Below are positions 35,296-37,774 of a stretch of DNA of 64,000 nt, piece by piece. Position 1 is the stretch's first letter, and every line of letters begins with the position of its first letter. The notes under the pieces are model-generated. The model saw only the letters and a program-made list of their open reading frames with translations, did no database searches and was not told the DNA's origin. Source of the DNA: Herbaspirillum rhizosphaerae (GTDB lineage Bacteria > Pseudomonadota > Gammaproteobacteria > Burkholderiales > Burkholderiaceae_D); NCBI RefSeq assembly GCF_001189965.1, contig NZ_LFLU01000005.1, positions 186,001 to 250,000 on the forward strand, in the 5' to 3' direction. The position numbers and the translations under genes are program-made.

Positions 35296-36084
35296 TTACT
35301 GATGCGTCGCCAGGCGCAAAATCCCGGAGAACTTCAGCAATTCGCTTTCTTCCACGTCGGATACCGCCCAGTAATGCATCTCGTCCGCCGTCCAGCGCAC
35401 CACGTGGTAGCCGCGGCTGCTCTCGGCCTTCGGCCCGGCGTCCTTGCCGTTGGCCGGCCAGATGTACAGATTGATGGGATGCTTCTGGCGGCGATAGACC
35501 AGCGCCGCGACCGGATGGCCGTCGAGGTAATCCAGCCGGCCGCCTTCCAGCACGAAGCCCTGGGGCGCGAGATCGATCACCGTCGGCGCAAAATTCAGCT
35601 TGCCGTTGAACCACGGTTTTACCGTATGCTGATCGGTGGAGGCGACATCGGTCAGATGGTCGGCTTGCAAGGAGCGTACGTGGTTGGAGATGGCTTCTTC
35701 GGTGATACGGTCATCCGCTGTCGGCAGGTTGAGGTACAGGCCGGCGCTCCAGACTGCAACCAGCAAGGTTGCCATCGCCGTGCCAAGCTGCAGCCAGCTC
35801 AGATTCCAGTTTGCCGGAAAGCTGGGCAGGCTGATCCGCCGGGGCTTGTCCTGCGGCAAGGTATCCGGAATATGCGTGGCGATGCGGGCGGCCAGATCCG
35901 GCGGCGCCTTGAAGTATGCGGTTTCGCTGCGGACGCGTTTGCTCAGCGCCGCTTGTTCGGTGTATTCGCGCCGGCATTCAAGGCAGCCGTCCAGATGGCG
36001 TTGCACGGTCAGCGTTTCCGCAATGCCGAGCTCCTGGTCCACATAGGCCGGCAGCAGTTCCATGATTTCGCTGTGTTCCATCAT
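35296..36084 (-). CDS. Membrane anti-sigma factor with zinc-binding domain
   Basis: 262 residues. The N-terminal ZAS domain (about 1-60) has the HxxxCxxC signature (HLDGCLEC) that binds zinc and clamps an ECF sigma factor. One membrane helix (about 93-113, LQLGTAMATLLVAVWSAGLYL) separates it from a ~150-residue periplasmic domain, which presumably senses the signal; its C-terminal part ends LLKFSGILRLATHQ. The start overlaps the sigma stop (ATGATG at 36084/36081 with GGGGG just ahead), so the pair is translationally coupled. The periplasmic domain does not match RseA or ChrR-type sensors that I can recognise, so the inducing signal is unknown. Confidence 0.92.
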   Translation of the reverse strand: MMEHSEIMELLPAYVDQELGIAETLTVQRHLDGCLECRREYTEQAALSKRVRSETAYFKAPPDLAARIATHIPDTLPQDKPRRISLPSFPANWNLSWLQLGTAMATLLVAVWSAGLYLNLPTADDRITEEAISNHVRSLQADHLTDVASTDQHTVKPWFNGKLNFAPTVIDLAPQGFVLEGGRLDYLDGHPVAALVYRRQKHPINLYIWPANGKDAGPKAESSRGYHVVRWTADEMHYWAVSDVEESELLKFSGILRLATHQ

Positions 36085-36629
36085 TCCCCCTGATTTGCCG
36101 GAGCAAGAATTTTCGCCAGCAGCTTGCGGCCGCGGCCGAGGCGCGACATGACCGTGCCGATCGGGATGCCGACGATGCCGGCGATTTGCTTGTACGACAG
36201 ATCCTCCAGTTCGCGCATGACCATCACCTCGCGAAACTCCAGCGGCAAGGCGGCAAGTCCCTGTTGTAACTGGCGTTCGCTGTCCTTGCGCAAGAGCAGT
36301 TTTTCCGGATTGTTGTCGCGGTAGTGCATGTCGACGGCATCCGTAGTGTCGAGGCTGTGAAACTCTTCGTCGAAGAGTGTGTTCTGCTGTTGCGCATGAT
36401 TCTCCTGATACCAGGTGTAGAAGGTATTGCGCACGATCGTCAGCAGCCACGCACGGGCATCGTCGCCATGGAATCCATCAAAAAAGCGGAAGGCCCGCAG
36501 GCTGGCTTCCTGCACCAGATCTTCCGCATCGTGGCGGCTGCGCGTCAGCCAGCAGGCCAGGTTGAATGCCGAGTTCAGATGCGGCATCACCAGCATGTGA
36601 AATCGTCGGTTCTTTATCGGATCGGTCAT
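36081..36629 (-). CDS. ECF-type RNA polymerase sigma factor
   Basis: 182 residues from ATG 36629. Region 2 (about 18-75) contains HDAEDLVQEASLRAFRFFDGF and ARAWLLTIVRNTFYTWY. Region 4 (about 125-175) has LPLEFREVMVMRELEDLSYKQIAGIVGIPIGTVMSRLGRGRKLL, with the recognition helix in GTVMSRLGR. The linker is short, as in all ECF factors. It shares an operon with its membrane anti-sigma factor and is divergent from a metallophosphoesterase-cupredoxin operon. The promoter upstream carries the same motif as the divergent one, so it probably activates its own transcription. Confidence 0.96.
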   Translation of the reverse strand: MTDPIKNRRFHMLVMPHLNSAFNLACWLTRSRHDAEDLVQEASLRAFRFFDGFHGDDARAWLLTIVRNTFYTWYQENHAQQQNTLFDEEFHSLDTTDAVDMHYRDNNPEKLLLRKDSERQLQQGLAALPLEFREVMVMRELEDLSYKQIAGIVGIPIGTVMSRLGRGRKLLAKILAPANQGE

Positions 36630-36654
36630 GCACGCGTTTCCATGGTTATCAGGC

Positions 36655-36684
36655 TGAAACTGGAAATCTCTTCTTTTTATTCCC
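36655..36684 (-). promoter_or_regulatory. Putative ECF promoter driving sigma/anti-sigma
   Basis: Minus strand GGGAATAAA (36684-36676), 15 bases, GTTTCA (36660-36655). The start codon lies about 26 bases further at 36629. The same two-part motif with the same spacing occurs on the plus strand 20-30 bases away. Confidence 0.7.
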
Positions 36685-36703
36685 GATACGGCGAAAAAAT
36701 AAT

Positions 36704-36733
36704 GGGAATAAATTTGCCGGGACGCCGGTTTAG
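36704..36733 (+). promoter_or_regulatory. Putative ECF promoter driving metallophosphoesterase-cupredoxin operon
   Basis: Plus strand GGGAATAAA (36704-36712), 15 bases, GTTTAG (36728-36733), 43 bases before ATG 36776. GG-AATAA -35 elements are typical of ECF factors, and the exact repeat on the opposite strand makes chance unlikely. Confidence 0.7.
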
Positions 36734-36775
36734 GTCGGTATCGATCAGGTGATCGGTCCAACCTTGGAGGACGTC

Positions 36776-37774
36776 ATGGGCAACGATAGTAGCAATGATA
36801 CGAACAATGGCACAAATAGCGATTTCAGCAATGGCATCGACAATGACACCAGCAGCGGCGTCGACCGGCGCAGCTTTCTGCGCCTGGCCGGGCTGGGCGG
36901 CGTCATCTTTGCCTCCGGCCTGAGCGGCTGGGCCGATGCGGCGGAGGCGAGCGGCTCTGCGGGCGGTATGACTGCGGCGCAAGATTTTTTCTTCGTGCAG
37001 CTGTCGGATTCGCATTGGGGGTTTGAAGGCGACGTCAATCCCGACGCCAAAGGCACCTTGCAGAAAGCCGTCGCGACGGTGAACGCACTGGAGCAGACGC
37101 CGGATTTCATCGTCTTCACCGGCGATCTGACACACACCACGGACGACCCGCGCGAGCGGCGCCAGCGGTTGGCGCAGTTTCGCGACATCGTCTCGGCGCT
37201 CAAGGTCAAGACGGTCTACTACATGCCGGGCGAGCACGATGCCGCGCTGGATAACGGCAAGGCTTATCAGGAATTCTTCGGCAAGACGCACTACACCTTC
37301 GATCACAAGGGCGTGCACTTCATCGTGCTGGACAATGTCTCCGATCCGGCGGCGCGCATCGGCGACGAGCAGCTCGCCTGGCTAGCGGCCGACCTGAAGC
37401 AGCAGCCGGCCGACGCCCGCATCGTGGTGTTCACGCATCGCCCGCTGTTCGATTTGTATCCGCAATGGGATTGGGCCACACGCGACGGCGCCAGGGCGGT
37501 GGAGCTGCTGATGCCGTACTCCAACGTCACCGTGTTCTACGGCCACATTCATCAGGAAAACCATCACATGACCGGCCACATCGCGCATCACTCCGCGAAG
37601 TCGCTGATCTTCCCGTTGCCGGCGCCGGGCTCGCAACCCAGGCGCACGCCGCTGGCCTGGGATGCCGCGCATCCTTACCAAGGACTGGGCGTGCGGACGG
37701 TGAAGCCGGAACCGCGCCCACGCAACACTGAATACACCCTGGCCGAACTGGCCGTAGGAGCGGCGAAATCATGA
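36776..37774 (+). CDS. Tat-exported calcineurin-like metallophosphoesterase
   Basis: 332 residues from ATG 36776, with GGAGG seven bases upstream. Residues 2-29 are almost only Asn, Asp, Ser, Thr and Gly; then comes a clear twin-arginine signal DRRSFLRLAGLGG (about 30-42) and a hydrophobic stretch. The phosphoesterase domain has the metal ligands in QLSDSHWG, FTGDLTHT, MPGEHDAAL (usual GNHD here GEHD), FTHRPLF and YGHIHQENHH. It is thus probably a folded, metal-loaded periplasmic hydrolase of phosphomonoesters or diesters. The cupredoxin gene overlaps its stop by four bases, so both are made together under the divergent ECF-type promoter. Confidence 0.93.
   Translation: MGNDSSNDTNNGTNSDFSNGIDNDTSSGVDRRSFLRLAGLGGVIFASGLSGWADAAEASGSAGGMTAAQDFFFVQLSDSHWGFEGDVNPDAKGTLQKAVATVNALEQTPDFIVFTGDLTHTTDDPRERRQRLAQFRDIVSALKVKTVYYMPGEHDAALDNGKAYQEFFGKTHYTFDHKGVHFIVLDNVSDPAARIGDEQLAWLAADLKQQPADARIVVFTHRPLFDLYPQWDWATRDGARAVELLMPYSNVTVFYGHIHQENHHMTGHIAHHSAKSLIFPLPAPGSQPRRTPLAWDAAHPYQGLGVRTVKPEPRPRNTEYTLAELAVGAAKS

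Follow-up and report, generated by a model that had tools for sequence, protein, structure and literature searches.

The 64,000-nucleotide stretch of the Herbaspirillum rhizosphaerae genome analyzed here (the window) carries a module of four genes, arranged as two pairs that diverge from a gap of 146 bases (36630-36775). On one side of the gap, with an ATG at 36629-36627 on the minus strand, lie the genes for an extracytoplasmic function (ECF) sigma factor and an anti-sigma factor, and on the other, with an ATG at 36776 on the plus strand, those for a calcineurin-like metallophosphoesterase (MPE) and a CuA-like cupredoxin (Table 1). The domains of all four proteins exceed the Pfam gathering scores. 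Likeness to relatives guided the choice of start codons; in 3 of the 4 genes, the longest open frame starts earlier. The sigma and anti-sigma genes overlap by 4 bases, as do the MPE and cupredoxin genes, and hence each pair looks co-transcribed.

The gap contains the bipartite motif GGGAATAAA-N15-GTTT in one exact copy per strand, the two copies being divergent and 19 bases apart, precisely where the initial annotation had placed them and with the 15-base spacer that it had described. The motif ends 27 bases before the start codon on the sigma side and 44 bases before that on the MPE side. A search of the whole genome (5,266,109 bases) for the motif, also proposed there, returned 3 exact matches, namely the two gap copies and one other, and 5 matches at up to one mismatch, as against 1 for the reversed control. 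Within the window, two places match at up to two mismatches, with 0.59 expected and 9 of 100 shuffles reaching two, a count that is weak when taken alone.

Table 1. Genes and predicted sites of the four-gene module (positions of the window).
Feature	Coordinates	Strand	Basis
ECF sigma factor gene, 182 aa, sigma-70 regions 2 + 4	36081..36629	-	Pfam Sigma70_r2 8.9e-13, Sigma70_r4_2 1.8e-14
Anti-sigma factor gene, 262 aa, membrane-anchored (predicted)	35296..36084	-	zf-HC2 8.1e-9; 24-row alignment; model
MPE gene, 332 aa, twin-arginine leader RRSFLRLAG	36776..37774	+	PF00149 6.1e-12
CuA-like cupredoxin gene, 123 aa	37771..38142	+	Cupredoxin_1 4.8e-12, COX2 1.8e-8
Sigma/anti-sigma operon promoter (predicted)	36657..36684	-	-35 GGGAATAAA 36684-36676, -10 GTTT 36660-36657; exact match; 21.7 bits
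MPE/cupredoxin operon promoter (predicted)	36704..36731	+	-35 GGGAATAAA 36704-36712, -10 GTTT 36728-36731; exact match; 22.1 bits
MPE ribosome-binding site GGAGG	36766..36770	+	sequence
Leader stem-loop CGATC-AGGT-GATCG	36742..36755	+	local fold; between predicted RNA start and MPE ribosome-binding site

Conservation of the two sites among relatives

A scan of contigs with the MPE yielded 85 relatives, the best 80 of which were kept and searched with the four window proteins using tblastn. The four-gene set recurs in betaproteobacteria (Herbaspirillum, Collimonas, Glaciimonas, Massilia/Telluria, Duganella, Cupriavidus, and Ralstonia) and in metagenome-assembled genomes labelled as alpha- or gammaproteobacteria, Bacteriovoracaceae, and Blastocatellia. 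The sigma gene is divergent to the MPE gene in 61 of the 80 loci, 60 of them with a gap of less than 400 bases; L034, in which the two genes are separated by an extra gene, was left out of the count, and dereplication by shared 8-mers reduced the set to 47 loci. Gaps were measured between match edges, some including a few coding bases and those of L014 and L015 being cut short by the match start. Among these 47 loci, GGAAT-N17..19-GT is present on the MPE side in 45, on the sigma side in 42, and on both sides in 40, compared with means of 1.52, 2.00, and 0.035, respectively, in 200 rounds of dinucleotide shuffling, where the maximum for both sides was 2.

The internal spacing is exactly 18 (GGAAT-N18-GT) in 42/47 loci on the MPE side, 42/47 on the sigma side, and 37/47 on both; among spacings of 12 to 25, 18 dominates, followed by 23 with 10 sigma-side occurrences. 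How far apart the two copies lie, by contrast, varies from 2 to 113 bases, with 24 values in 37 loci. A fixed internal spacing combined with a variable distance between the copies argues for two promoters rather than one operator. From the spacing-18 sites a more extended consensus emerges, CGGGAATAAA-N13-CGGTATT, in which the -10 element may also read CAGTCT or CGGTTT and of which GTTT is the local form. In this consensus, GGAAT and GT are fixed by the way the sites were selected, the remaining positions being unselected, and the neighboring bases are conserved nonetheless: A follows GGAAT in 38/42 and 42/42 sites, and G precedes it in 34/42 and 33/42, while A or C is commoner than T as the third -10 base. 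When a matrix built from 78 sites of relatives, with Herbaspirillum loci excluded, was run over both strands of the 64-kb window, the gap sites ranked first and second (22.1 and 21.7 bits), third place scoring 8.3. The matrix is permissive around 17.4 bits, a score that L005 reaches despite a G in its GGAAT core and a location within a long open frame of the opposite strand.

We sampled 34 Herbaspirillum genomes, calling the presence of the MPE at E 1e-60 and that of a site at a threshold of 11 bits. The MPE gene was found in 11 of the 34 congeners, all of which keep at least one site, and a twelfth (G026) has the sigma and anti-sigma genes with both sites (19.2 and 16.7 bits), its MPE gene being cut by the contig end. 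Loss of the motif from close relatives that keep the genes, one of the observations that the initial annotation had named as refuting its proposal, was looked for in these congeners and did not appear: among the ten with a divergent sigma gene, the sigma-side site exceeds 11 bits in all ten and the MPE-operon site in nine, and the eleventh (G015), where the sigma gene lies 1.8 kb downstream on the same strand, has a single site before the MPE gene and no cupredoxin in the fetched stretch. In G002, G017, G021, and G029, about 600 bases separate the sigma and MPE genes, and the plus-strand site, where found, lies at the sigma end, probably preceding an extra gene. Four of the congeners (G018, G013, G024, and G003) apparently correspond to the assemblies already included as L006, L007, L008, and L009 and are not independent of the counts from the 47 relatives.

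Rearranged loci were scored with the same matrix, keeping the highest-scoring position in the 350 bases that precede the MPE and sigma matches in L034 and in 18 of the 19 loci with a non-divergent or missing sigma gene (L075 offers 16 bases upstream only). Where the sigma gene lies downstream of the MPE gene on the same strand (L028, L041, L048, L069, and L076), a site of 15.0-26.3 bits precedes the MPE gene and none precedes the sigma gene (below -4), and where the two genes form separate same-strand units (L044), both have a site (22.5 and 27.2 bits). Three Collimonas loci (L049, L052, and L081) carry one site before the sigma gene (16.7-20.8 bits) and none before the MPE gene (-4.8), in L067 the MPE gene is preceded by a site (16.2 bits) and the more distant sigma gene by none, and L034 has sites on both sides (27.9 and 22.2 bits). 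Six of the eight scored MPE loci with no sigma gene found in the fetched stretch are siteless (L058, L061, L063, L064, L078, and L082; at most 1.0 bits). These comparisons support the view that the motif mostly moves and disappears together with the sigma gene.

Reading of the sites and competing explanations

The sigma protein has the composition typical of ECF (group IV) factors, its roughly 180 aa containing no sigma regions other than 2 and 4, and scores 80.6 bits against TIGR02937 (cut-off 42.9); as is also characteristic of the group, a bipartite sequence with fixed spacing stands upstream of its own operon (42/47 relatives at spacing 18). Its recognition helix carries the motif PIGTVMSRL, MSR being present in 70/70 rows with residues at these positions; its best NCBIfam model is PRK12533, at 224.3 bits, below the curated cut-off of 248. 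The anti-sigma factor has an N-terminal zinc motif, H4-x25-H30-x3-C34-x2-C37, which conforms to the ZAS anti-sigma definition C/H-x23-26-H-x3-C-x2-C as quoted in an excerpt of PMC7907618, and H30, C34, and C37 are invariant in a 24-row alignment. Residues 95-118, hydrophobic by eye, form one probable membrane helix, followed by a C-terminal beta domain, presumably periplasmic, with an invariant HTVKPW. An AlphaFold2 model from the 24-row alignment (mean pLDDT 82.9, pTM 0.56) resembles RseB/MucB only weakly (best E 2.7e-4 over about 80-100 columns, TM about 0.25) and matches two short 3hug chains (RslA/sigma-domain complex, which of the proteins not being stated) at E 0.34 and probability 0.98-0.99. 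Weak as the RseB likeness is, we read the modeled protein as a usual membrane anti-sigma factor with a putative periplasmic sensor.

We consider it highly probable that the two motifs represent -35/-10 promoters of the adjacent ECF sigma factor, which would combine divergent autoregulation with activation of the MPE and cupredoxin genes while being held by the anti-sigma factor. The promoter and autoregulation part of this reading is very well supported by comparison of the sequences, and the sigma factor very probably switches on the exported MPE-cupredoxin pair. In the mechanism that we infer, the co-transcribed, membrane-anchored zinc-motif anti-sigma factor (35296-36084) would inhibit the sigma factor (36081-36629) at rest, until a signal on the periplasmic side released it; the holoenzyme would then fire both promoters outward from the 146-base gap, the minus-strand promoter amplifying the sigma and anti-sigma factors and the plus-strand promoter yielding the Tat-exported MPE together with the CuA-like cupredoxin. 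A single promoter gap could in this manner act as a two-way amplifier. The initial annotation had regarded the shared motif as the adjacent sigma factor's own promoter consensus; the fixed spacing in relatives and the way in which the motif follows the sigma gene agree with a promoter class belonging to this factor. Likewise, conservation of both copies in 40 of the 47 relatives at spacing 17-19 lends support to the proposed arrangement of autoregulation plus a two-gene output. Its description of the regulon as self-contained is borne out only in part, as the genome has a third site, before a chemoreceptor gene, and its other ECF sigma factors apparently use similar promoters.

Several observations weigh against this reading. 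Sites are absent on the MPE side in 2/47 relatives and on the sigma side in 5/47 even at spacing 17-19 (the stretches of L014 and L015 being cut short), and the congener G017 lacks an MPE-operon site exceeding 11 bits, GGAAT-N18-GT being present there below the threshold. Among the scored loci in which no sigma gene was found, L045 has a 19.3-bit site and L056 a weak one of 6.7 bits; each is close to the end of its contig, beyond which a sigma gene may be located. As aligned, the zinc ligands of the anti-sigma factor are not universal, H30 being found in 47/71, C34 in 56/71, and C37 in 54/71 rows, gaps included. Of five ECF26-type promoters from the literature (see below), only that of rpoE1 scores high with the module matrix, SMc04291, ecfR6, rpoE4, and sorT reaching 11.1, 9.2, 6.6, and -5.3 bits, respectively. 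Finally, GGAATAAA-N15-GTAT stands before the operon of another ECF sigma factor of the same genome, L111, where it scores 12.5 bits, and the VMSR recognition motif is shared by other ECFs encoded there.

The last point bears on the possibility that the sites are genuine promoters whose main reader is another ECF sigma factor, L111 (genome C54; lipoprotein-type) or L112 (RpoE6-type), or that several factors use them simultaneously, which we find quite improbable. Both factors, encoded in the same genome, share PIGTVMSRL with the module sigma factor, and overlapping targets of RpoE1, RpoE4, and RpoE6 of S. meliloti are described in passages of PMC6180224 and PMC10880074. However, the sites track the module sigma gene through rearrangements and are missing before six of the eight scored MPE genes for which no sigma gene was found nearby, and the GGAATA-type sequence upstream of L112, with its spacing of 17 bases, reaches 2.6 bits. 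With the same helix motif and GGAATA-type sequences at L111 and L112, cross-talk is possible. It is very improbable that the motifs are not promoters but halves of a single inverted repeat recognized by a dimeric transcription factor: although GGGAATAAA and TTTATTCCC do form an inverted pair in the window, the GGAAT-to-GT spacing is kept at 18 in 42/47 loci per side while the distance between the arms is not, and a single half is retained where the sigma gene lies downstream of the MPE gene. We reject a palindromic operator on account of the variable arm distance. Chance likeness in an AT-rich gap, to which the shuffled windows with two hits at two mismatches might point, has a negligible probability and is contradicted by the presence of both sites in 40/47 dereplicated relatives, with 0.035 expected, and by the matrix ranking.

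Relation to known ECF groups

Among solved structures, the best match of the sigma factor is SigH (4.7e-23), which we take to be the Mycobacterium protein and which has the same PIGTVMSRL helix; the SigR-RsrA/SigH group is presumably the one usually numbered ECF12. RsrA is soluble, whereas the anti-sigma factor of the module, which matches the RsrA model at 9.5e-9, below the model cut-off, is predicted to be membrane-anchored with a large periplasmic domain. The module further differs from SigR/SigH in its target, an exported MPE and a cupredoxin, and in its host, a proteobacterium. SigR promoters are given, in a passage of PMC5005934, as combining GGAAT and GTTG elements, and the module has both a GGAAT/GTT promoter sequence and the PIGTVMSRL helix of this group. 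The sigma factor reaches 101.8 bits with TIGR02947 (SigH_actino), below the cut-off of 251.55.

A second likeness is to ECF26 (S. meliloti RpoE1, RpoE4, and RpoE6 and Starkeya SigE), with which the module shares a GGAATA/GT promoter and a membrane anti-sigma factor whose C-terminus is, as predicted here, periplasmic; in addition, RpoE6 of S. meliloti has the recognition helix PIGTVMSRL. Within this group, RpoE4 drives sorT-sorU-azu2, the last gene encoding pseudoazurin, itself a cupredoxin, whereas the output of the module is an MPE and not a sulfite oxidase. Excerpts of the literature give the ECF26 consensus as -35 GGAATA and -10 GT (PMC6180224) or the promoter as GGAAT/CGTC (PMC6527743), and that of S. 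meliloti rpoE1 as GGGAATAAA-N15-GTCT (PMC6180224); the group is also treated in part of PMC3511301. The module sites have this GGAATA at -35 and GT at -10, and the module matrix assigns 19.0 bits to the rpoE1 promoter and -8.0 to the ECF15 promoter rpoE5. In a tree of 28 module sigma factors with RpoE6 (pSymA) as the sole ECF26 reference, the module factors form a clade (support 99/95) that includes the sigma factors of B. stagnalis and R. leguminosarum and excludes RpoE6, which, as one reference among long branches, falls weakly beside L112 of the genome studied here (89/38).

Based on these sequence features, we file the module as a probable ECF/zinc-anti-sigma circuit of the GGAAT promoter class. 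This GGAAT/GT class is already known from SigR and ECF26, and the novelty lies in the output pairing and its breadth rather than in the regulatory principle. Consistent with the initial annotation, which knew of no ECF circuit with such an output, no description of an MPE and a cupredoxin under ECF control was found in open-licence PMC papers. The analysis provides a well-supported promoter consensus and a compact list of targets for an ECF/anti-sigma pair that recurs across Proteobacteria.

Output proteins and further sites in the genome

In the exported output, which is conserved, a phosphoesterase whose metal motif is non-standard goes together with a copper protein of the CuA type, a combination of which no description was found in open-licence PMC papers. 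Two arginines occur together within the first 60 residues in 79/81 MPE rows. Calcineurin-like metallophosphoesterases are recognized by the metal motifs D-x-H, GD, GN-H-D/E, H, and G-H-x-H, which are conserved in the MPE except that the Asn of motif III is replaced by Glu, giving GEHD instead of GNHD (E153 in 79/79 rows with a residue there). Among solved structures, Rv0805, a relative of the class III phosphodiesterases CpdA and SpdA, and related phosphohydrolases come closest (1e-5), and the Metallophos domain is common to the MPE and this family; the Glu aligns with the Asn of GNHD in Rv0805, at position 99 of the aligned chain, and this Asn presumably corresponds to N97, for which an N97A variant has a solved structure. 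The Tat-type leader and the GEHD form of motif III set the MPE apart from Rv0805, CpdA, and SpdA, and its scores stay well short of the NCBIfam cut-offs for the latter two (45.1 vs a cut-off of 225 and 39.8 vs a cut-off of 400, respectively).

The closest solved structures to the cupredoxin are cytochrome oxidase subunit II and CuA chains (3.7e-15); from the CuA domain of that subunit it differs in being a stand-alone protein and in the frequent replacement of the first His ligand by Met. CuA centers bind copper through two Cys, two His, and one Met. The CuA loop (CDIFCGSGHESM) is intact, with C105-x3-C109-x3-H113-x2-M116 matching a pattern present in 76/76 rows with residues, but the full ligand set is not found in the window protein, where Met70 takes the place of the first His; at this position, Met occurs in 40/76 and His in 36/76 rows, with no third option. 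Motifs of c-type cytochromes were seen by eye near the MPE gene in L034 and in the Collimonas loci. The sequences suggest that the MPE-cupredoxin pair may have a periplasmic redox or copper-linked role, and the CuA-type domain and c-type cytochrome motifs would lead us to guess at electron transfer or copper handling in the periplasm. It appears unlikely, albeit conceivable, that the ECF module governs an undescribed periplasmic redox system in which a GEHD-bearing, Tat-exported protein of the MPE fold and a natural His-to-Met CuA-type cupredoxin would be joined by a c-type cytochrome in some species and by a chemoreceptor in this genome, forming a circuit to sense, swim, and detoxify or respire that would run parallel to, but be distinct from, the ECF26 sulfite circuit.

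A diverged module is present on a Burkholderia stagnalis replicon (L087 3871-6839), with identities of 52% for the sigma factor, 43% for the anti-sigma factor, and 35% for the MPE, which retains GEHD; its cupredoxin is a different one, plastocyanin-like by eye, and the sites score 18.9 and 24.9 bits. Two Nitrospirae loci with MPE and cupredoxin genes and no ECF gene found nearby (L061 3100-3400 and L063 1500-1724) have TTGACA-type sequences upstream, as judged by eye, which suggests that these genes may be under sigma-70 control. The leader stem-loop of the MPE transcript in the window (Table 1) has a matching palindrome in 10 of the 55 relatives that have a spacing-18 site on the MPE side, including members of Herbaspirillum, Collimonas, Telluria/Massilia, and Paralcaligenes, both sides of the stem being variable; it is possibly an mRNA stabilizer or an operator. 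In viral contigs, the sigma protein met with a single match, at 28%, and nothing useful.

The third exact copy of the motif in the genome (C1:192842-192869; L001 1501-1528) lies 94 bases before the ATG of a chemoreceptor gene, by eye a methyl-accepting chemotaxis protein. Among the 34 congeners, an exact site at this position was otherwise found only in G013 (25.8 bits), another carrier of the module. The chemoreceptor region, used as a DNA query with at most 22 candidates scored per genome, found matches in G000 and G013, and for a tandem receptor copy in G000 and a homologue in G015 the match begins just before the ATG, leaving the motif unmatched. Judging from only two genomes, the chemoreceptor site, conserved in one congener, is a probable further member of the regulon. 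A relaxed search of the genome with GGAATA-N15-SNGTHT yielded nine matches, as against two for the reversed control, including the two module sites and the chemoreceptor site. Of the other candidates, L135, L136, L138, and L140 lie within long open frames (4.9, 8.9, 4.7, and 11.7 bits), L139 scores 8.7 bits, and L137, at 16.7 bits, is apparently intergenic.

The RpoE-like sigma factor of the genome has VRSR in its recognition helix, unlike PIGTVMSRL. A second ECF system, with an MSR helix and a small secreted protein, presumably of the YxFxxD lipoprotein type, has GGAATAAA-N15-GTAT upstream in L111, L092, L089, L093, L094, and L103. The motif class precedes the gene for a small secreted protein, with that for another ECF sigma factor beside it, in five MPE-less congeners (G001, G007, G010, G012, and G033; open frames read in L092 only), and by their sequences, several ECFs of the congeners appear to share the GGAATA-type promoter class. 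Additional matches to the motif were found in the congeners G017 (L097) and G029 (L102).

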